Shown: piece after piece, positions 9,058-39,762 of the stretch | Numbering within the stretch: the first letter of the stretch is position 1 | Layout: each line of letters starts with the position of its first letter | Source: a virus | Virus record (IMG/VR): IMGVR_UViG_3300009093_000034 | Span: 218,632 to 282,631 of that record | Direction: 5' to 3' (one strand) | DNA length: 64,000 nt | Notes under the pieces: generated by a model | What the model saw: only the letters and a program-made list of their open reading frames with translations | The model's database searches: none | What the model was told of the DNA's origin: nothing | Position numbers and translations under genes: made by a program

Positions 9058-9750
9058 ATGACCAGTTCCCAGTTCTTGACTGAGATTAAGGCTTACGCTA
9101 AAGAAGCGAACAACCTCTATTTCGACGGAGAATTGGACTTGAACAAGATTCACTTCGTGGTCTCCACGAGGATGTTCAGGACTCTGGGACTTGCTAACCA
9201 TCGCTTCAACAAGCGCCTCAATCGTGTGGTTTACTCCATTAAGATGGCGAGTCTGTTGTCTGGAACCGACACCCACAACTGGCACAACGTTCTGGTCCAT
9301 GAGATGGTTCACATCTGGCAGTACATGAATGGTTATTTCGACCATCACGGAAACTCCTTCTTGATGAAGGCTGCTCAGATTGGCCGAATTGATCCTGACA
9401 TGCACATCGAGAGACTTTGTCATCTGAATGACCACAAGAACAGGTCGGTCTTGGCCAAGGTTCTTGCTGTGAAGGCTGCTCGTTCTTCTGCTGCTACTAA
9501 GAAGACCCAGTACCTGGTTTCCAAGAATGGCAAGTTCTTCTTCATCACCTGTATCAAGGTGAAGGGAATTGCTACTCTTCAGAAGAAAGGATACTCTGTT
9601 TTCAGGCTCAAGAAGCAGATCACCAGGGTTCAGAACACCAGAAACCTGGAGAAACTCCTTGAAGAACGTCGGTACTACAGCAAAGAGATTCTTCTTAAGA
9701 ACTTTCCTGAACTTCCGAGCTTGATGGTCAAGCTCAACCCCACAAAGTAA
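9058..9750 (+). CDS. SprT-like zinc metalloprotease
   Basis: A 230-residue protein with HEMVH at residues 81-85 (zinc ligands His81 and His85, catalytic Glu82) and HHGNSF at 96-101, the third His typical of SprT/Spartan-like proteases. Members of this family cut DNA-bound or crosslinked proteins or are tied to stress responses; the phage substrate is unknown. The C-terminal 80 residues are basic (KKGYSVFRLKK) and could bind DNA. It has its own promoter motif and a terminator right after it, so it is a single-gene transcription unit. Codon use is more GC-rich than its neighbours, suggesting high expression. Confidence 0.8.
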   Translation: MTSSQFLTEIKAYAKEANNLYFDGELDLNKIHFVVSTRMFRTLGLANHRFNKRLNRVVYSIKMASLLSGTDTHNWHNVLVHEMVHIWQYMNGYFDHHGNSFLMKAAQIGRIDPDMHIERLCHLNDHKNRSVLAKVLAVKAARSSAATKKTQYLVSKNGKFFFITCIKVKGIATLQKKGYSVFRLKKQITRVQNTRNLEKLLEERRYYSKEILLKNFPELPSLMVKLNPTK

Positions 9751-9800: not shown

Positions 9801-10787
9801 ATGGCAGTAACAATCATCATTGAAGGCCCGAATCTATCGGGAAAGAGTACCTTATCCAAGGCTCTGTCAGAACGACTTGGAATTCCAGTCGTCCACAACT
9901 CTAAGCCTGAAGACGGCTTCAGAGACAATCTCAAGTTCTCCATGGAGAACAAAGAGAACATCATTCTAGATCGACACCACCTCGGAGAAGTCGTTTACCC
10001 TGCATTGAAGAGGGACGGACGACAGCCCCTTGAGCTATGGGAACAACATATGATCGAGAGAGTTCTTGAATCCAAGGGAACGATCTTGATTCTTTGTAGT
10101 GCAGACCTTCAGTTTCGACTACAAAAGTTCGATGAGAGAGGTGAAGACTTTGTCACCAAGAATGAGCTTAAAGATGAAGGAGATCTCTTCGAAGATGCCT
10201 TCAATCGAAGCCTTCTCTCCAACAAGTTTGACTATCGTCTTCCTTTTACCGATGAAGATAAGACTGAACGATTTCTTGATTTTATAGAAGAAAGATACAA
10301 CTATCTTCTTGAAATCTCTGAAGAGTTTGAAGAGTATGAACACCAAGGTTATCTTCCTTCAGATCCTTACTCTGAGCCCACGGCAGTTATTATCGGAGAT
10401 AGCTATGGTGACAAAACATCTGTTGGATCTGGAACAAAGAGAGCTTTTGTATCTCCTATTGGATCAAGCAGACACCTTGCTCAAGCTCTAGCTATGATTC
10501 ATCGTCCAACAGATAAACTTTACATCACCAATGCTTGGAAGTACATTGATAACAGAGAAGTAAGTCGTCAAACTCTTGTTGAAGAACTTTATTTTGTTGG
10601 AGCTTCCAAATGTCCTATTATTGTTCTTGGTTATGAAGCCAAGAAAGCTTTGGATGGAATCAATACAGATGGTCTCTTTTCCCATTATACTTTTGTAAAC
10701 CATCCTCAGTTTGAGTTTAGGTTCAAGAACAAAGAGATCGGGAGATACGCTAAGGCTCTCGACATTGCATTGGGAGTCAACAGGTGA
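9801..10787 (+). CDS. dNMP-kinase-like / UDG-like fusion protein
   Basis: A 328-residue two-domain protein. Residues 1-190 are a P-loop nucleotide kinase of thymidylate-kinase type: Walker A GPNLSGKS (9-16), an ILDRHHLGEVVY segment, and RGE in the lid. Residues about 195-328 resemble the uracil-DNA glycosylase superfamily: VIIGDSYG at the start, YITNAWK in the middle, PIIVLGYEAKKAL and a late NHPQ. Such glycosylase-like domains could act on modified bases or be structural. It begins the base-modification island and overlaps the dCMP hydroxymethylase gene by 4 bases, so it may phosphorylate a modified dNMP. No ribosome site precedes ATG 9801; TATACT lies 7 bases upstream. Confidence 0.6.
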   Translation: MAVTIIIEGPNLSGKSTLSKALSERLGIPVVHNSKPEDGFRDNLKFSMENKENIILDRHHLGEVVYPALKRDGRQPLELWEQHMIERVLESKGTILILCSADLQFRLQKFDERGEDFVTKNELKDEGDLFEDAFNRSLLSNKFDYRLPFTDEDKTERFLDFIEERYNYLLEISEEFEEYEHQGYLPSDPYSEPTAVIIGDSYGDKTSVGSGTKRAFVSPIGSSRHLAQALAMIHRPTDKLYITNAWKYIDNREVSRQTLVEELYFVGASKCPIIVLGYEAKKALDGINTDGLFSHYTFVNHPQFEFRFKNKEIGRYAKALDIALGVNR

Positions 10788-12082
10788 GTCAACAAAACAA
10801 CAACGGAGTAGCCCAGTCTTTATTCATGGCTCTCAAGTATCTATACGATGAAGGAAAGTTTGTTCCGGATAAGACAGGAGTCAAGACTGTTGAGATCGTC
10901 AACGGAAGTATCTCTCTAGATCCGCAGTTTCCTTACTTAGACCTGGGAATTTTCAAGGCCAAGGAAGAATACATCAAAAAAGAACTTGAGTGGTATCTCT
11001 CTCAAAAGTTAAACATCCATCCTATAATGGATGATGTAAAGATTTGGAATGAAGTCTGTGGTAGAAATGGAGAGATCAACTCCAACTATGGTTGGGCAGT
11101 TTTTAGTCCAGAAAACTGGGATCAATTTGGGTATGTTCTCAGTTGCTTAAAGAAAGATAAGTGGTCTCGTAGAGCTGTTATGCAATACAACAGACCTGTC
11201 ATGGTAGTAGACTATAACAGAGATGGAATGTCTGATTATCTTTGTACTCTTTCTGTTCAAGTGTTGATCAGAGATAGCAAACTTTACTACATCGTCACTC
11301 AACGATCTTGTGATTTTAGAACAGGTCTTCCTAACGACTTTGCTTGGCACGCTTGGGTTTACAAGTCTCTTTTCAACTTGTTGAAAGAGGAGTATCCAGA
11401 TCTTGAATATTCAGAAGATGGTATCCAAATGAACTTTGGGTCTGTTCATCTCTACGAGAGAAATTTTGGACTCTTCCAAAAGTGGGAAGAATATCTTCAA
11501 GAACAGTCTAAGATCGAACAAGATAAGTTAACAAACTCGATAGCCATTGTTCCTAGAAAAAAGTGGTATCCCGCTATGTACTTCACAAAGGTACGAGACG
11601 TTCAAAGTCCATTGAGAGCCCATGATACCGATGCGGGTATGGACTTCTATGTTCCTAAATTCTCCGATGATTTCATCAGAGACTTTGAAGTAAAGAATCC
11701 CAAGATCAAAGTGATCGACAAGATCAACATTGAACTTAAGCCTCATGAAAGAGTCTTGATCCCAAGTGGAATCAAGGCACACGTTCCTGAGAACCACATG
11801 CTCATGACCGAGAACAAATCTGGTGTCGCTTCTAAGCTAGGACTTGACGTTATGGCTAAGATCGTTGACGAACCTTACAATGGAGAGATACATCTTTCAT
11901 TGGCCAACACTTCCAACGAAACCGTACTGATTACAGAAGGACAGAAGTTGGTTCAGTTGATCGCTGTTCCGGTTTCTTATGTTGTCCCTACAGAGATCAC
12001 AAACGAAGAGTACCAAAGCCTTCCTCGATGGCAAGAAACTTCCAGAGGTGAAGGTGGGTTTGGCTCAACAGGAACAAAGTAA
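10784..12082 (+). CDS. dCMP hydroxymethylase fused to dUTPase
   Basis: A 432-residue fusion. Residues 1-240 match T4 gp42 dCMP hydroxymethylase: FVPDKTGVKT (26-35), GEINSNYGW (96-104), SRR (128-130), DYNRDGMSDYLCT with nucleophile Cys154, and LPNDFAW with Asp185. In T4 gp42 the equivalent Asp179 gives dCMP rather than dUMP preference, so 5-hydroxymethyl-dCMP is the expected product. Residues about 265-432 are a trimeric-type dUTPase: DTDAGMDFY (281-289), PSGI, NKSGVASKLGL, a VDEPYNGEI motif and a C-terminal GGFGSTG. The fusion couples hmC supply with dUTP removal. GTG start overlaps the kinase stop. Confidence 0.85.
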   Translation: MSQQNNNGVAQSLFMALKYLYDEGKFVPDKTGVKTVEIVNGSISLDPQFPYLDLGIFKAKEEYIKKELEWYLSQKLNIHPIMDDVKIWNEVCGRNGEINSNYGWAVFSPENWDQFGYVLSCLKKDKWSRRAVMQYNRPVMVVDYNRDGMSDYLCTLSVQVLIRDSKLYYIVTQRSCDFRTGLPNDFAWHAWVYKSLFNLLKEEYPDLEYSEDGIQMNFGSVHLYERNFGLFQKWEEYLQEQSKIEQDKLTNSIAIVPRKKWYPAMYFTKVRDVQSPLRAHDTDAGMDFYVPKFSDDFIRDFEVKNPKIKVIDKINIELKPHERVLIPSGIKAHVPENHMLMTENKSGVASKLGLDVMAKIVDEPYNGEIHLSLANTSNETVLITEGQKLVQLIAVPVSYVVPTEITNEEYQSLPRWQETSRGEGGFGSTGTK

Positions 12083-12471
12083 TGGTATTGACACTGCCTC
12101 ATGGCGAGTTAACCTATGGATGGAAAACACCTAGAGAGCTTAGACTAGAAGAAGATGATGAAAACTATCTTCCTCCAGGAATTGAGAAAATCCTTGAGTT
12201 AGATGAGTTGTTAGTTGATGACGCGTTTAGAAATAAAGGAATAGGAGGTCTACTTGTAAAGTGGTTTTTTGCTACTCCTGAAGCAGAAGAAGCTGATGCC
12301 TTCTTTCTCGATGTCTCTCCTTCTTATCTAGAAGATGAAGGACTAACGGAAGCTGAAGCTGAGCTTTACTTGAGACACTTTTACTCTAAGTTTGGTTTTA
12401 AGTCTAAGACTCCACACTCAAGAATGTGGGTCTTTAAGAAACCTCTTCCTATTGAGGACTATCCTTTATGA
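12082..12471 (+). CDS. GNAT-family N-acetyltransferase
   Basis: A 129-residue protein with LELDELLVDDAFRNKGIG leading into an acetyl-CoA-binding motif A (RNKGIGGLL near 52-60) and a C-terminal FYSKFGFKSK strand-helix typical of GNAT enzymes. It lies in a row of nucleotide-modification genes (1-base overlap upstream, 4-base overlap downstream). GNAT enzymes occur in known DNA hypermodification clusters, so an acyl transfer to a modified base or its precursor is possible but unproven. Confidence 0.7.
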   Translation: MVLTLPHGELTYGWKTPRELRLEEDDENYLPPGIEKILELDELLVDDAFRNKGIGGLLVKWFFATPEAEEADAFFLDVSPSYLEDEGLTEAEAELYLRHFYSKFGFKSKTPHSRMWVFKKPLPIEDYPL

Positions 12472-12929
12472 GCGAGTTTCTAAATGACCTCTTCTTCATG
12501 AAGTGGGCAGAAGACGTTTCAGAAGCTTCCACATGTGCCAAGATCAAGGTCGGGTCTGTCATCACCAAGAACAAAAGAGTCGTTTCTCTTGGTTACAATG
12601 GCGTCCCTTCTGGAGTCGACCATTGTTGTAATCACTTCTCTGGAGATCTTTCTAGAGAAGTCTTAGGGGAAGATGAGTTCTTGAAACTCCACTCTGAGTT
12701 CTCAAATAACTTTGAACTTCATGCTGAGTCTAACGCCATCATTGATGCCTTGAACAGACAACAAGATCTTACAGGTACCACGTTATACTGTACTTACTCT
12801 CCTTGTTCTCACTGTAGCAAGTTGATCATTCAAACAGGGATCAAGAGAGTTGTCTTCAAAAAGTTCTACTCAGTCGAGCCTGTTCAATGGCTTAGCCAAT
12901 TCATATCTGTAACTCACCTTCCAGACTAA
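12468..12929 (+). CDS. dCMP deaminase
   Basis: A 153-residue zinc deaminase. HAE at 85-87 (zinc His, catalytic Glu) and PCSHC at 112-116 (zinc Cys) are the signature; the N-terminal AKIKVGSVITKNKRVVSLGYNG is typical of deoxycytidylate deaminases. It converts dCMP to dUMP for dTMP synthesis, competing with the hydroxymethylase for dCMP. An extra Cys-Cys-His segment near 53-56 may bind a second zinc as in T4-type enzymes. Confidence 0.85.
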   Translation: MSEFLNDLFFMKWAEDVSEASTCAKIKVGSVITKNKRVVSLGYNGVPSGVDHCCNHFSGDLSREVLGEDEFLKLHSEFSNNFELHAESNAIIDALNRQQDLTGTTLYCTYSPCSHCSKLIIQTGIKRVVFKKFYSVEPVQWLSQFISVTHLPD

Positions 12930-12937
12930 GGATCTTC

Positions 12938-14107
12938 ATGACCACCACAAAGTACTATGACGAGTTTCTTCGCTATCACGCTATGGCCAAGAAACAGCAA
13001 GAGCTGTGCAACCTTGGAACTACTCCCTACTCCCAATCAGGAGTGAACGATGATCTCATGGAGAACGTGTTTCTCTATGACGTCGTAGAGAGAAAGTACG
13101 CAGGGTTCTCGGCTATCATCAACGATTGTTTTTATGGATCAAGTCCAGAACATCCTTACTTTCAGAAGATGCAGTTTATTCCTCCTTCACATGATAGAGT
13201 TAGAACGATCTTTCTCTGGGACGACGCCAGAAAGAAACTCAGCACTCAAGCTTGGTTCTATGTTTTTCTTGTTCATCGTTTGACAGGAAGTGGCATCAAC
13301 TACGCTAAGAATCCTTCAGGCTATCACAACACCATCCTTCCTGCTTTGTCTCAGGCCACGACAATTCCTGACATGACCGACATCATCAGAGGCTACAAGG
13401 GAGGACCTTTCTACACCTCTGTCGGATATCAGTTTCCATCGTTCCCTAAGCCTCTTGGAATTCAAGCTCGAGCTCTTTATAAGAGAGGTGGAGATTATTT
13501 CCTTTGTGAGTACCTACCAGAGTTGGTCCAAAAAGTTTACGAGTATCTCGAGAAAGCCCATTGGTCTGGAAAGAAGGTTACCTTTAGAGAACTTGGAACT
13601 CTCATGTTCGATTGGAACAAGTCAAAAGGTCTCAAAGCCTTCAAGTTCCAATACTCAGCTTTCTTAGCTGACATCGCAGACTGGTTCCCTGAGTTCATGG
13701 ATAGAGAATCTCCTTTCTACTATGGAAGCAACGCAGTCCAGTGTCTCTCTTATCTTGTTCAAGGTGGAAGTAAGTCTGAGACTGTCTTTGACAAGTTGAT
13801 GGAGAAGATCTACCAAGACACAGGCTCAGTTCCTTACAACGCAGAGGACGTTTGTTGTGACTTCATCAGATACGTTGAGAACTATATCCGTCCAGGTGCT
13901 GATTACGGACATCTAGATATGGATAAAATTTGGTCTAGTTCAAAGATCTTGGATCATCCTTTTGGCCGACAAAAGGCCATGTTGGATCTAAGGCTTGTTC
14001 AATCATTTAACAATCTCTCCTTCCACCCAACTGGAGATACTATTCTCTCAAACAGTGGTTTCTCTGTTGACCAATACAGAGAAGCAATCAAGAAAGGACA
14101 CTTCTAA
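12938..14107 (+). CDS. HhH base-modification protein (aGPT-Pplase-like)
   Basis: A 389-residue protein with no membrane segment. It shows features of the diverged DNA-glycosylase-fold proteins named alpha-glutamyl/putrescinyl-thymidine pyrophosphorylases: Arg-Thr-Ile-Phe and aromatic-rich helices early, a VGYQFPSFPKP stretch near 165-175, and a late EDVCCDFIRYVENY helix comparable to the family's LCEFDKY motif. Those proteins flip a hydroxymethylated base and help add groups to it. Neighbours on both sides (dCMP deaminase, PLP enzyme) fit a base-modification role. The assignment rests on motif resemblance and context, so it is moderate. Confidence 0.5.
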   Translation: MTTTKYYDEFLRYHAMAKKQQELCNLGTTPYSQSGVNDDLMENVFLYDVVERKYAGFSAIINDCFYGSSPEHPYFQKMQFIPPSHDRVRTIFLWDDARKKLSTQAWFYVFLVHRLTGSGINYAKNPSGYHNTILPALSQATTIPDMTDIIRGYKGGPFYTSVGYQFPSFPKPLGIQARALYKRGGDYFLCEYLPELVQKVYEYLEKAHWSGKKVTFRELGTLMFDWNKSKGLKAFKFQYSAFLADIADWFPEFMDRESPFYYGSNAVQCLSYLVQGGSKSETVFDKLMEKIYQDTGSVPYNAEDVCCDFIRYVENYIRPGADYGHLDMDKIWSSSKILDHPFGRQKAMLDLRLVQSFNNLSFHPTGDTILSNSGFSVDQYREAIKKGHF

Positions 14108-14994
14108 TGTCACATGACACTCACGTAGTAGACGGCATCAATAAAGATGCTTTTTATCTAGATGATGAGAAGACACTTGTCAAAGCCCAAGAAACCATAG
14201 ATTACTACAAAGAACTTGCTAAGGGTTGGAAGACTTATCTCCCAGATCCTGTTGTCATGACCCATGACAACGTGAGAGTAGTTAGAGATGACTTCATCAT
14301 CGGAACTAAGGCTAGAGCTGCTGACTTGGTCCTTTCTAGGATTCAAGAGGAAGAAGTGGTTTATTGTCAACCTCGAGTTGGTTTGGCTGGAGTCTCTGTC
14401 ATTGAAGCATCTAAGATTCATGGAAAAAGGGTAACTCTGTTCATGCCTTCTTCTAAGAAGATCTCCTACCACCAAGCTTGTACCATTGAGCGTGGAGCAA
14501 ACCCAATCTTCAAGAGAATCGCTGCCATGCCCAACTTGAATAGAGAAGCAGATATTTACGCCAAAGAAAATGGAGCTTACTTCATTCCTCTCGGACTAAA
14601 GCATCCTCTTGCTACAGCTGCCATCATGCTTACCGCTCTCCAAATTCCAGAACCTGAAGAGGTCTATGTTGCAACCTCCACAGGAGTTTTAACCAGAGCT
14701 CTTCAGATCGCTTGGCCAAACGCCAAGTTCATCAGCGTAGCTGTAGCTAGAAACATGAAAGCTGGAGAACTTGGTCGAGCTCAAGTTATCTCAGAAGCTT
14801 TGGACTTCCAGACCCCTGAGAAGAAAGAGAATCTTCCTCCGTTTCCTTCTGTGTCGACCTACGATGCCAAAGTTTGGAAGTACATTCCAAAAGACGGAAA
14901 GGTTGACAGACTCTTTTGGAACGTAGGCCAAGAACCCATCTTGTTTGACCAAACAATTATTGATAGAACTTTATCTTACCGAGACTGGAAGTAA
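14107..14994 (+). CDS. PLP-dependent enzyme, fold type II (PALP family)
   Basis: A 295-residue protein with the layout of the tryptophan-synthase-beta / ACC-deaminase superfamily: GTKAR at 66-70 with Lys68 as the likely Schiff-base lysine, and a STGVL turn at 191-195 that would bind the PLP phosphate. It overlaps the HhH protein by one base. In phages with hypermodified bases, PLP enzymes attach or trim amino-acid-derived groups on hydroxymethyl bases; here the substrate could be a decorated hydroxymethylcytosine. Substrate is inference; fold call is fairly firm. Confidence 0.65.
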   Translation: MSHDTHVVDGINKDAFYLDDEKTLVKAQETIDYYKELAKGWKTYLPDPVVMTHDNVRVVRDDFIIGTKARAADLVLSRIQEEEVVYCQPRVGLAGVSVIEASKIHGKRVTLFMPSSKKISYHQACTIERGANPIFKRIAAMPNLNREADIYAKENGAYFIPLGLKHPLATAAIMLTALQIPEPEEVYVATSTGVLTRALQIAWPNAKFISVAVARNMKAGELGRAQVISEALDFQTPEKKENLPPFPSVSTYDAKVWKYIPKDGKVDRLFWNVGQEPILFDQTIIDRTLSYRDWK

Positions 14995-15003
14995 GATATT
15001 AAA
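14992..15003 (+). promoter_or_regulatory. weak promoter-like motif TAAGATATTAAA
   Basis: This matches 9 of 12 positions of the phage motif, overlaps the stop of the PLP-enzyme gene and precedes AAAGGAA and ATG 15013. Weak. Confidence 0.3.
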
Positions 15004-15012
15004 GGAACGAAT

Positions 15013-16056
15013 ATGTCATCACTTTTACTAACACCATTTGCCCCAATGTCCAACAGGATTGGATCTCACCGAGCTGCTCAAGGCATGATCTATGCCGATC
15101 AGATTCGACGTCTAGTTGATAGAGATCTTGAGATCGAAACTTCTGAAGAGATGAAGGATCTGTCTCAGTATGACAAGATCTATGTCTATCACGGAAACGA
15201 TTGGGGTGGAACCTTGAACCTCTTTGGAGGACTCAAGGAGTACACGGCTACTGACAGGTTTGAGAGACTTACCCACTACAAGGGAATTGTCTACTCTCTT
15301 CAGATCCCTTTCCCTGACTACGCCGGGATGATCAAGGACAGATTAGACAAAGCAACTGCCAAGGGCGACAAGGTCCAGGATGGTTGGTTGTCTGCCGACT
15401 ACGACAACCTTCGTAAGATCCAGACAACCTCGGTTGTGTTGGACATGAAGTTCTTTGAGACCACAGATAACTTGGTCATTGGAGACAGCCACGCTATCTC
15501 CTTGTATCGTCCTGGTTGGAACGTGAACTCTGTTCCCTTCAAGACTCTTCATGGGGCTCTTGATCTAGGACTCAAGAGCTTTTGTGCCCCAGAATCGAGT
15601 AAGTATCTTGTCCTAGACGATCTTGACATCTACTTCGGAAACATCGATATCCGTCACCATCTTCTTAGGCAACCAAATCCTGAAGAAGCCACGAGGAGTT
15701 TAGTAGCTCAGTACTTTGAGCAAGCCAATGAACTTCCTGTTCGTCAGGCCAACATTTACGAACCTCTTCCTATCAACCCTGATTCTAGAAAGGTCCCTCA
15801 GACTGGCTGGTACAAAGGTACCCCATTTTTTGGAACGTGGGAAGAGAGAAACAAGATCAGAGACATCTTCATCGAAGAAGCTAAGGCTCAGACCATCAAG
15901 TATGGCCCTAAGGTTCAGTTGAAGAAATGGGCTTCTTACCTTCAGAACGAGAAGGGAGAGCTTGATGAGAAGTTCATGGAAGTTCCACAATCGGTCCACC
16001 TTTCAAGAGCAGCTTATCCTTACTGGCAAATTCCTGTAGATCTTCCTCCTTTCTAA
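15013..16056 (+). CDS. SGNH-hydrolase-like protein in base-modification island
   Basis: A 347-residue protein. Block I GDSH at 157-160 (candidate nucleophile Ser159), then FGNIDIRHH at 208-216 comparable to the FGEIDCRxH block seen in some SGNH-like proteins, and a late SVHLS near 330 that could provide the catalytic His. The N-terminal 150 residues form a separate alpha/beta part with VYHGNDWGG. No signal peptide, so it acts in the cytoplasm. Its place as last gene of the island suggests acyl transfer to, or removal from, a modified base; a sugar-modifying role is an alternative. Function uncertain. Confidence 0.5.
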   Translation: MSSLLLTPFAPMSNRIGSHRAAQGMIYADQIRRLVDRDLEIETSEEMKDLSQYDKIYVYHGNDWGGTLNLFGGLKEYTATDRFERLTHYKGIVYSLQIPFPDYAGMIKDRLDKATAKGDKVQDGWLSADYDNLRKIQTTSVVLDMKFFETTDNLVIGDSHAISLYRPGWNVNSVPFKTLHGALDLGLKSFCAPESSKYLVLDDLDIYFGNIDIRHHLLRQPNPEEATRSLVAQYFEQANELPVRQANIYEPLPINPDSRKVPQTGWYKGTPFFGTWEERNKIRDIFIEEAKAQTIKYGPKVQLKKWASYLQNEKGELDEKFMEVPQSVHLSRAAYPYWQIPVDLPPF

Positions 16057-18200: not shown

Positions 18201-19274
18201 GTGGATAAGGAATTCACACTAGCAGTTTTTATCTGCCGGGCTCAGCCTTTTCATAAGGCTCATTACGCTGCTCTTCTCCATGCAGCAAAATATGCTACTC
18301 GTTTACTCATCCTAGTAGGAAGTGCAACTAGTGGTCGTAGCACAAGAAATTCTTGGACATATGAAGAACGCGTTCGCTTCATTAAAGAATACATCATGTC
18401 TAAGGATGAGAGACTCGATTACTCTCACAAGATCGAAATCCGCCCTATCGCAGATAGTGCCTATGATTTCCATGATTGGCTATTCAGAGCCAAGAAAATC
18501 ATCCAAGAAACCCAATTCGTAGATCTCCCTCAGGGACAACACAAGATAGCCATCATCCGTCACTACAAAGACGACACGAGCTACTATCTCAACTACTTCC
18601 CAGAATACCAGACCATAGAAACTCCCACGTACGATGATGGGTTTGGAGCTACACAGATCCGTGAAGCTTACTTTAGCATAGAGTATGGCGTTGACGGATT
18701 TATGTCAAGAATAGCTCTTGAAAAAGAATATCCTTATCTTAAGACGTGGCGAGAAGCCAACAAAGAAATTTTCCTCCAACTTCAGCGAGAGTTCGCCTTT
18801 GTCAAGGCTTACAAGAAGAGCTGGGAAGGAACTCCCTATCCTGTCAACTTCAGTACCTGCGATGCAGTCTGTGTCTGCTTGGGTCATGTTCTCTTGATCA
18901 AGAGAGGAAGGAATCCTGGAAAAGACCAGCTAGCTTTGCCTGGTGGTTTTTTGAACTTGGATGAGACCTTTCAGCAAGGCGCTATTCGTGAGCTCCGTGA
19001 AGAAACTCACATTGGCCTTTCTGTTCAAACTCTAGAAACTACCATCGCCAATCAACACATCTTCGACCATCCTCTTCGTGATCCTCGTGGTCGTTTCATC
19101 ACCAATGCTTTTCTCTTTGACCTTAAGAAAGAAAAGAGTCTTCCTGAGATAAAAGCAGACGATGATGCTTCGGAAGCCCTTTGGCTTCCTCTTCAGGATC
19201 TTGAGAAGAGAGAAAATGAATTTTTCGCTGACCACGCTCAGATCATCAAGTGGTTCAGGAACAGGATGCGCTAA
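18201..19274 (+). CDS. nadM: bifunctional NMN/NaMN adenylyltransferase-Nudix protein
   Basis: A 357-residue two-domain enzyme. Residues 1-180: nucleotidyltransferase with AQPFHKAH (HxGH-like, His18 and His21) and SGRSTRNSWTYEER (ISSxRN-like). It would join AMP to nicotinamide or nicotinate mononucleotide. Residues about 215-357: Nudix domain with GGFLNLDETFQQGAIRELREE, which matches the Nudix box except that the usual Gly after EE is His. The architecture equals the NadM-Nudix proteins of bacteria and large phages. With the nicotinamidase just downstream and NadE and PncB further on, it completes a Preiss-Handler route. Start is GTG 18201. Confidence 0.85.
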   Translation: MDKEFTLAVFICRAQPFHKAHYAALLHAAKYATRLLILVGSATSGRSTRNSWTYEERVRFIKEYIMSKDERLDYSHKIEIRPIADSAYDFHDWLFRAKKIIQETQFVDLPQGQHKIAIIRHYKDDTSYYLNYFPEYQTIETPTYDDGFGATQIREAYFSIEYGVDGFMSRIALEKEYPYLKTWREANKEIFLQLQREFAFVKAYKKSWEGTPYPVNFSTCDAVCVCLGHVLLIKRGRNPGKDQLALPGGFLNLDETFQQGAIRELREETHIGLSVQTLETTIANQHIFDHPLRDPRGRFITNAFLFDLKKEKSLPEIKADDDASEALWLPLQDLEKRENEFFADHAQIIKWFRNRMR

Positions 19275-37080: not shown

Positions 37081-37910
37081 AGTTCTTTCTTTTCCTGTTC
37101 ATCACAACCTTTTCTTGGTCACAAGAGTTCGTGATCAAGAATGAGCCTCTTCCTGAGAACACGATCTATCTGACCTTCGACGATGGTCCAGGTCCGATGA
37201 CTGAACATCTGGTCTCTATCTTAGAGTCTAGAGGAGTTCGAGCGACCTTCTTCATTAACTCCTACGACACCAAAGCAACCAAAGAGACGATCGCTACATC
37301 TAACCGTCTTCTTCAGTACAAAGATCTTCTTCTTAAGGAGATCGCCGATGGAGACGTTCTAGGTAACCACACCTTCTCCCATAGAGACCTTGCGTGGTTA
37401 AGTCCTGAACAGATCAAGTGGCAACTTGAGAAGAACCAACAGAATCTCAACGAAGCTATCGGACCTTACACCTTCACCTTGATGAGACCTCCTTTTGGTT
37501 CTCCTTGGGAAGGTCTTGGAAAAGTGTACACTGAGGAACAAGTTCAAAAAGTTTCTCAGATATTGAAAGATGAGAAGTTGATCCCTATCAACTGGAACGT
37601 GGATAGCTCAGACTCGTCTGACTGGGTGAAAGGAGAAGGAGCTAGAGCTTCAGACCCTAACACAGTGGATTTTGAGTACACCAGAGAATTTCTAAAGAAG
37701 TCCAAACGAGAGATCGAGAGACTTTGGCCTAAGATTCAGAACAAAGAAAGTTTGATCATCCTGTTTCATGATACTCATCCTACTTCGATTGATATCCTTC
37801 CCGGCTTCATCGACTACTGCTTGAGCCTTGGCTACAAGTTTGATACTCTAGACAACTACGTAAAGTGGAGAAACAACCATGAAGATAGCACTCTCACAGC
37901 TCAACGTTAA
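37077..37910 (+). CDS. exported polysaccharide deacetylase (NodB domain)
   Basis: 277 residues. A hydrophobic N-terminus (FFLFLFITTFSWS) acts as signal peptide. NodB motifs: TFDDGP with Asp35/Asp36, GNHTFSH with zinc His98 and His102, RPPFG, an NWNVDSSD strand and LFHD. It would remove acetyl groups from peptidoglycan, capsule or another cell polysaccharide in the periplasm. The last 11 residues overlap the NAD synthetase gene by 32 bases. GGAG ribosome site. Confidence 0.8.
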   Translation: MKFFLFLFITTFSWSQEFVIKNEPLPENTIYLTFDDGPGPMTEHLVSILESRGVRATFFINSYDTKATKETIATSNRLLQYKDLLLKEIADGDVLGNHTFSHRDLAWLSPEQIKWQLEKNQQNLNEAIGPYTFTLMRPPFGSPWEGLGKVYTEEQVQKVSQILKDEKLIPINWNVDSSDSSDWVKGEGARASDPNTVDFEYTREFLKKSKREIERLWPKIQNKESLIILFHDTHPTSIDILPGFIDYCLSLGYKFDTLDNYVKWRNNHEDSTLTAQR

Positions 37911-39762
37911 AGCCGGTCAGGTTGCTACCAATCTGGCCCACATGAAAGCTCAGATCAAGAAGTATGATGAGAAGGATTACGACTTCATCGTCTTCCCTGA
38001 GCTCTGTGTTGGTGGCTACATGGTTGGAGACTTGTTCTTTGATCCTGATTTCATCAACATTCTTGAGGAAGCCAGCATCAATTTGATCACGTTCGTCTCG
38101 GATCTTAGGATCAACGTGATCTTTGGAAACGTCTGTAGGACCGGTTATGGTCTTAGAGGTGAAAAGGACGAGAATGGAAAAGGTGCTCTTATGAACAGCG
38201 CTTTCATCATCTCGCCCTCGAACATCAAGGGAGACCCTGCTTTTGTCGGAATGCAGGGAAAACAACTTCTTCCTAACTATCGTGTCTTTGACGACAAAAG
38301 ATACTTCACCTCGGATGACACATCGACTCCCTTCACCATCGAGACCAGACATGGAGACGCTGTTAAGATTGGTCTTGAGATCTGTGAAGATATGTGGGAT
38401 GACTCGTACAAGAAGAAACCCACCAAGAGTCTGATCGAACAGGGTGCTGAGTTGATCTTCAACATCAGCGCTTCGCCCTTCACCAAAGGAAAGAGTGGAG
38501 CTCGTGATGCTGTGATCATTGGCCATCTTCCTCTTAACTGGGACGGGTTTTTCTTCTACACAAATTGCACTGGTGCCCAGAACAACGGAAAGAACATCGT
38601 TACCTTCGATGGTGACAGTGCTATCTTTAGCAAAGATGGTCGTCTGGACCGTGCTTATCAAGGTCAAGAAGTTCTTGAGTTTGATACTGAAAAGACTAAC
38701 AAGTTCGCAGGTGTTCCTGATGGAATGTTGACTACTTCGAGCAAGTACTTCCATATCTTCCATGCTATCGTTCAAGGTATTCGTCACATGGATGACATCA
38801 TGGGAAATAACAGGTTCCCATACATCGTCGGTGTGAGTGGAGGAATTGATAGTGCTGTAGTTCTTAGTCTTCTTGCTTTGGCTGTTGGCCCTGGAAGAAT
38901 CCTGGCCTACAACCTCCCTACCAAGTACAACAGCAAACAGACCAAGGGCTTCGCTAAGTCTCTGTGCGATCATCTTGGCATCACTCTCAAAACTCTTCCT
39001 ATCGGAGCTCTTGCTGGAGAACAACTCAAGTTCTTCAAGAAACATAAGATCCATCCGAAGCCTCTCAACATTGAGAACATCCAGGCCAAGATCCGAGGGA
39101 CCACTGTCCTTTCGAACATCGCTGGCATCGAAGACGGTGTGATGACCAACAACGGAAACAAGGTCGAGATCGCTCTTGGTTACGCCACTCTTTACGGAGA
39201 CGTTAATGGAAGTATCGCCCCTATCGGAGACTTGACTAAGGTCGAAGTTTGGGGATTAGCCAACTGGCTCAACGATTACTTCGAGAGCAACTGGGACGGA
39301 AATAGACCGATCCCCAAAGAGTTGATCTGGAACCCGGCAGATCCTTTGGATACGGATGTCTTCTTGCCTTCGGCAGAACTCAAAGAGAATCAGAAGGATC
39401 CCATGAAGTGGGGTTATCACGATGCCCTTCTCTCGTACGTGATGAAGTACAACAGAGGTTCGGTCAACGAACTGGCTGATTTGGTCATTTCGGGAAACTT
39501 CATAGAATTTTACGGAAGACTATCGGCTGCTACCGAAGGAGATCTTACTCCTAAGCAGATCGAGATCACTGCTCCTAAGGGAATGCAGAACATCTTGAAT
39601 GATCTTCGTTGGTTCTTCAATCTTTTCTACAGAAGTACCTTCAAGAGGATCCAGTCGCCTCCGATCATCTTGATCAGCAGAACCTCGTTCGGCTTTGACT
39701 ACAGAGAATCTCAGTTGGGAAGACCTGACTACATTCTCCAAAGTGAAAAGTATCTCGGATAA
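37879..39762 (+). CDS. nadE: glutamine-dependent NAD synthetase
   Basis: 627 residues, two domains. N-terminal 270: nitrilase-type glutaminase with FPELCVGGY (catalytic Glu), GKQLLPNYRVFDDKRYF (Lys) and GLEICEDMWDD (Cys). C-terminal: NAD synthase with ATP-binding SGGIDSA near 315-321 and later conserved NGNK and APIGDLTK segments. It amidates nicotinate adenine dinucleotide to NAD+, the last step of the Preiss-Handler route whose other enzymes are also in this window. Length is normal. Last gene before a promoter motif. Confidence 0.9.
   Translation: MKIALSQLNVKAGQVATNLAHMKAQIKKYDEKDYDFIVFPELCVGGYMVGDLFFDPDFINILEEASINLITFVSDLRINVIFGNVCRTGYGLRGEKDENGKGALMNSAFIISPSNIKGDPAFVGMQGKQLLPNYRVFDDKRYFTSDDTSTPFTIETRHGDAVKIGLEICEDMWDDSYKKKPTKSLIEQGAELIFNISASPFTKGKSGARDAVIIGHLPLNWDGFFFYTNCTGAQNNGKNIVTFDGDSAIFSKDGRLDRAYQGQEVLEFDTEKTNKFAGVPDGMLTTSSKYFHIFHAIVQGIRHMDDIMGNNRFPYIVGVSGGIDSAVVLSLLALAVGPGRILAYNLPTKYNSKQTKGFAKSLCDHLGITLKTLPIGALAGEQLKFFKKHKIHPKPLNIENIQAKIRGTTVLSNIAGIEDGVMTNNGNKVEIALGYATLYGDVNGSIAPIGDLTKVEVWGLANWLNDYFESNWDGNRPIPKELIWNPADPLDTDVFLPSAELKENQKDPMKWGYHDALLSYVMKYNRGSVNELADLVISGNFIEFYGRLSAATEGDLTPKQIEITAPKGMQNILNDLRWFFNLFYRSTFKRIQSPPIILISRTSFGFDYRESQLGRPDYILQSEKYLG

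Follow-up and report, generated by a model that had tools for sequence, protein, structure and literature searches.

A recurrent phage gene module pairs a T4-type dCMP hydroxymethylase with predicted M6-like tailoring enzymes and may direct amino-acid-type decoration of 5-hydroxymethylcytosine

We analyzed a 64,000-nt window, meaning the whole stretch of DNA under study, which corresponds to C1:218632-282631 of record G000, the 305,833-base virus record IMGVR_UViG_3300009093_000034 (record completeness not stated). Between window positions 9801 and 16056 lie seven open reading frames, all on the plus strand and separated by only -4 to +18 bases, a spacing that makes the set operon-like. A first-pass annotation had placed seven genes in a row here, and each of them was recovered:

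9801..10787, +, P-loop nucleotide kinase with a C-terminal UDG-like domain (phrog_761, 9e-13; PF03167, E 0.088, weak)
10784..12082, +, dCMP 5-hydroxymethylase and dUTPase fusion (PDB 1b49, 1.4e-50; PF00692, 1.7e-14)
12082..12471, +, GNAT acetyltransferase (PF13508, 3.1e-06)
12468..12929, +, dCMP deaminase (PF00383, 9.8e-25; phrog_174, 3.6e-45)
12938..14107, +, module protein 12938, helical, predicted DNA-hmC tailoring enzyme (AlphaFold and BFVD fold resemblance)
14107..14994, +, PLP fold-II enzyme, homologue of M6 gp052 (phrog_7093, 7e-34; hhalign)
15013..16056, +, SGNH-fold protein 15013, predicted, with an N-terminal extension (phrog_13881, 7.5e-51; AlphaFold)

Directly upstream of the operon, at window positions 9058-9750, is a gene for a SprT-like metalloprotease (PF10263, 2e-12).

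Five of these genes, encoding the hydroxymethylase, the dCMP deaminase, 12938, the PLP enzyme and 15013, recur as a module in many environmental virus contigs, often together with a further family, C3, and in differing gene orders. An IMG/VR search with 12938 returned 57 relatives with their loci, and a scan with the PLP alignment confirmed at least 575 relatives, of which the best 80 were studied for linkage. Among the 28 PLP-anchored loci from those 80 that had at least 5 kb of upstream and at least 2.5 kb of downstream sequence, all 28 contain 12938 and 27 contain 15013, while 22 have a TS-family gene, 18 a dCMP deaminase gene and 16 C3 (counts not deduplicated by contig); co-occurrence at 28/28, 27/28 and 22/28 indicates that the linkage is not due to chance. 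Loci anchored on 12938 under the same flank criterion, likewise not deduplicated, gave 15013 in 21 of 23, a TS-family gene in 20 and the PLP gene in 19. In three contigs (G004, G016, G017) there is no hydroxymethylase near the module, and the gene lies elsewhere on the contig with the motif NDYAW. Several other module contigs, for example the 165-kb G001, yielded no TS-family gene and may be incomplete. Within the contigs that lack a hydroxymethylase, a search run without a positive control found no TET route, and a C5-methylase was found in one only (G002). At one locus (L005 10339-11010), a gene with the LOG-type motifs GGGPGIMAA and PGGLGTMDE, as read from the sequence, sits between C3 and the PLP gene. 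The module looks common among environmental phages, and literature searches of incomplete coverage returned no description of it.

The case for a T4-type dCMP hydroxymethylase, and hence for a predicted hmC-forming step, is strong at the level of sequence. In the 10784 product, residues about 17-235 form the hydroxymethylase and residues about 310-432 the dUTPase. Against PDB sequences, the N-terminal domain matched T4 gp42 (1b49) at 1.4e-50 and E. coli TS at 3.8e-11. Both features that mark the T4 type are present: the conserved catalytic Cys154 (codon at 11243-11245) and, at the T4 Asp179 position, Asp185 (codon at 11336-11338), whose motif NDFAW aligns with NDYAW in 1b49 (T4 entries 6l18 and 6a9a read NNYAW there). 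The dCMP-selecting Asp that the first-pass annotation had read in this enzyme is therefore in place, and it is invariant in the 64 module hydroxymethylases. In the TS-family alignment from module loci it occurs in 64 of 65 proteins (not deduplicated); the one exception, reading GLPFNIASY, scores as a separate canonical TS (PF00303, 1.4e-101). The relevant comparison is Pseudomonas phage M6, in which thymidine is hypermodified to 5-NedU (PMC6449724). Thirty-eight TS-like proteins from M6-type loci read GANAVH, where the scripted alignment column falls on Ala, one position off Asn; on our own reading of the GAN motifs, these proteins probably carry Asn at the substrate site. The Asn-bearing, dUMP-type TS expected of thymidine hypermodification is not what we found: the window enzyme and each of the 64 module hydroxymethylases have Asp at this position. 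The record also encodes a ThyX-type thymidylate synthase on the minus strand (C1:16591-17184; PF02511, 7.6e-57), so dTMP need not derive from the 10784 product.

The kinase/UDG and GNAT genes stand outside the conserved module. Both had been counted in the modification set in the first-pass annotation, but no relatives of either were found in the module loci. Relatives of the 9801 kinase in phages AXL_3 and DSL-LC01 adjoin a TS-family gene and a dCMP deaminase gene; the TS-family neighbors have Asp in both phages, and that of AXL_3 is closest to CMP 5-hydroxymethylase. Location beside Asp-type hydroxymethylases favors a nucleotide kinase role, and it is more likely that the 9801 protein acts on nucleotides, with hydroxymethyl-dCMP kinase as our best guess. 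Neither a T4 gp1-type dNMP kinase nor a phrog_671 pyrophosphohydrolase was found in the record.

The PLP fold-II enzyme (14107) provides the link to known hypermodification systems. By hhalign it is homologous to M6 gp052 over most of the protein (E 5.2e-10, probability 96.6, 220 columns), and in phage M6 gp052 follows an ADDT gene (PF18724, 1.4e-46). Lys68 and an STG loop are invariant in 21 PLP sequences, and Lys68, which aligns with the Lys of M6 FSKIRG, is probably the Schiff-base lysine. When the PLP profile was compared with 2,938 proteins, the weaker matches all fell within M6-type loci. The proposed tie between this enzyme and hypermodification is borne out to the extent that it groups with the M6 enzyme by profile homology. 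Relatives also occur inside a gene annotated as a DNA methyltransferase in Erythrobacter phage ZS04 (L060 2326-4764) and, in Microcystis phage Mae-JY30 (L059 8995-9705), inside one annotated as a DNA modification methylase that neighbors ParB/sulfiredoxin genes, perhaps representing another base-modification route.

Protein 12938 is harder to place. It has no Pfam (E≤1) or PHROG family, no significant match among PDB sequences or PDB folds, and, like C3, no match in the INPHARED phage set. Its AlphaFold model (pLDDT 86.8) has as its top BFVD match a 53%-identical protein labeled in that database as "Amino acid:DNA transferase domain-containing," and ranks 4, 6 and 7 are AADT, Pplase1 and the phiW-14 HMUDK_hel protein, at probabilities of 0.98 to 1.00, weak E values (0.014 to 0.08) and TM scores of about 0.4. 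None of 25 family members matched PF18724 (ADDT) or PF18723 (HMUDK_hel) at E≤1, and its profile, when scored directly against these two families, stayed at background level. C3 offers an indirect, sequence-based link: 12938 and C3 give a weak reciprocal profile match, C3 being the best match of 12938 among 54 families, and the C3 profile matches 12938 best and the HMUDK family next, end to end and above the other 50 families built, so that C3 appears to bridge the two. For scale, the profile match between HMUDK_hel and ADDT is itself only a weak one. Given the weak BFVD E values, the background-level profile scores and the indirectness of the C3 link, we regard 12938 as showing a predicted fold resemblance to the AADT/5-hmdU-DNA-kinase type and place it in neither Pfam family. 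The initial description of an HhH protein of aGPT-Pplase type agrees with this putative AADT/HMUDK_hel resemblance and finds no support in the Pfam ADDT or HMUDK_hel models. C3 is absent from the record, and no base-activating enzyme acting in DNA was firmly identified there.

The 15013 protein had been called SGNH-like, and its AlphaFold model (pLDDT 83.7) agrees: among PDB structures the closest folds are PAF acetylhydrolases (E 3.8e-04, probability 1.00), and these head the list together with isoamyl acetate esterase and further SGNH enzymes (TM to target up to 0.55). Ser159 (GDSH) and His329 (SVH) are invariant in the family. Block III has the form GNID or GSID, and no Asp is conserved three residues ahead of His329, so the sequences appear to depart from the classical GxND and DxxH spacing; we predict an SGNH-fold protein. 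We found relatives in 43 phage records, of which 38 are from Aeromonas. Two Aeromonas T4-like phages that were tested, 44RR2.8t and 25, resemble the present system in having a 15013 homologue and an Asp-type hydroxymethylase, the latter alongside a canonical TS, and differ in that the phage collection yielded no 12938 or PLP relative for them. In 44RR2.8t, unlike here, the homologue forms a fusion with an HMUDK_hel-like region (L061 4408-8388; PF18723, 9.2e-04, below cut-off); a sodium:solute symporter gene precedes the fusion. At another locus, a C5-cytosine methylase-like gene (L047 13249-14448; PF00145, 5.4e-09) adjoins the 15013 homologue.

We lean modestly toward a reading in which the operon makes 5-hydroxymethylcytosine and, after replication, decorates it with an amino-acid-derived group. 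Its first step, in which the hydroxymethylase would turn dCMP into 5-hm-dCMP, is strongly supported by sequence; the dCMP deaminase and dUTPase would supply the separate ThyX with dUMP made from ordinary dCMP and dUTP. The analysis shows the gene identities, the residue that selects the substrate, the linkage of the module, the PLP homology and a predicted SGNH fold; beyond this, we infer the incorporation of hmC, its decoration and the amino-acid nature of the group. The 9801 kinase would take hm-dCMP towards hm-dCTP, which the polymerase would insert. On DNA, 12938 (with C3 where present) would activate the hydroxymethyl group and/or attach an amino acid, the PLP enzyme would remodel the attached amino acid at the alpha carbon, and the SGNH protein would transfer or remove an acyl or ester group. 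Such an amino-acid-derived 5hmC would protect phage DNA against restriction.

The alternative that we take most seriously, while judging it unlikely, accepts a decorated hmC and differs in the group, which would not derive from an amino acid but be, for example, a phosphate, an acyl or some other group; the PLP enzyme would then supply a small-molecule precursor and not act on DNA. Esterases and acyltransferases are common among SGNH folds, 12938 falls outside Pfam ADDT, and its BFVD matches include the DNA-kinase family besides transferases, all of which suit such a group; the PLP enzyme, however, is specifically homologous to the M6 gene that adjoins an ADDT gene. Plain hmC, with the remaining operon genes engaged in unrelated metabolism, is clearly improbable: the nucleotide genes would by themselves be enough for hmC, but 12938, the PLP enzyme and 15013 keep company with the hydroxymethylase in many contigs and in varied orders, and PLP relatives are located in M6-type hypermodification loci.

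Decoration of thymine or uracil, as in M6, ViI and phiW-14, would fit the homology of the PLP enzyme to its M6 counterpart and the AADT-like fold of 12938, yet we give it very little weight, since the hydroxymethylase is closest to T4 gp42 and has the Asp found in all 64 module hydroxymethylases where homologues from thymidine systems have Asn, and the record carries a separate ThyX. M6 itself resembles the present system in its homologous PLP enzyme, whose gene in M6 neighbors one for an amino-acid:DNA transferase, and in a nearby TS-family enzyme and dCMP deaminase; it differs in the Asn of M6-type TS-like enzymes, in encoding genuine ADDT and HMUDK_hel proteins as well as a radical SAM enzyme, and in that no 15013 relative was seen in it. 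For Delftia phage phiW-14 (putrescinylthymine), in which a pyrophosphorylated hydroxymethyl intermediate has been reported (PMC5977210), the likeness is the BFVD fold match of 12938 to its HMUDK_hel protein, whereas its system acts on hydroxymethyluracil and 12938 has no sequence-level match to it. Least probable of all is an ordinary sugar-hmC made by 15013 as a glucosyltransferase. A match to the T4 beta-glucosyltransferase family hints at this (PF09198, E 0.099), but its 12.8 bits fall far short of the cut-off of 27, it recurs in just 1 of 26 relatives, and the invariant GDSH and SVH motifs and predicted SGNH fold oppose it; on the fold, we rejected 15013 as a glycosyltransferase. The T4 hmC pathway is alike in its same-family dCMP hydroxymethylase with Cys and Asp179 and unlike in its glucosylation, no alpha- or beta-glucosyltransferase being recognized in the operon, which has the PLP, 12938 and SGNH proteins instead.

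On the broader proposal of a widespread phage pathway, in which a T4-type dCMP hydroxymethylase, M6-like tailoring enzymes and an SGNH protein would together yield amino-acid-derived 5-hydroxymethylcytosine, we are evenly divided. The phage hmC decorations that we met in the literature are sugars; if the proposal is true, the module would extend amino-acid-type tailoring to cytosine, supply new DNA-labeling enzymes and allow restriction evasion to be predicted for phages that carry it.

Elsewhere in the window, positions 18201-19274 encode an NMN adenylyltransferase/Nudix protein and positions 37879-39762 a protein whose relatives are annotated as NAD synthetase, a possible phage NAD salvage set.
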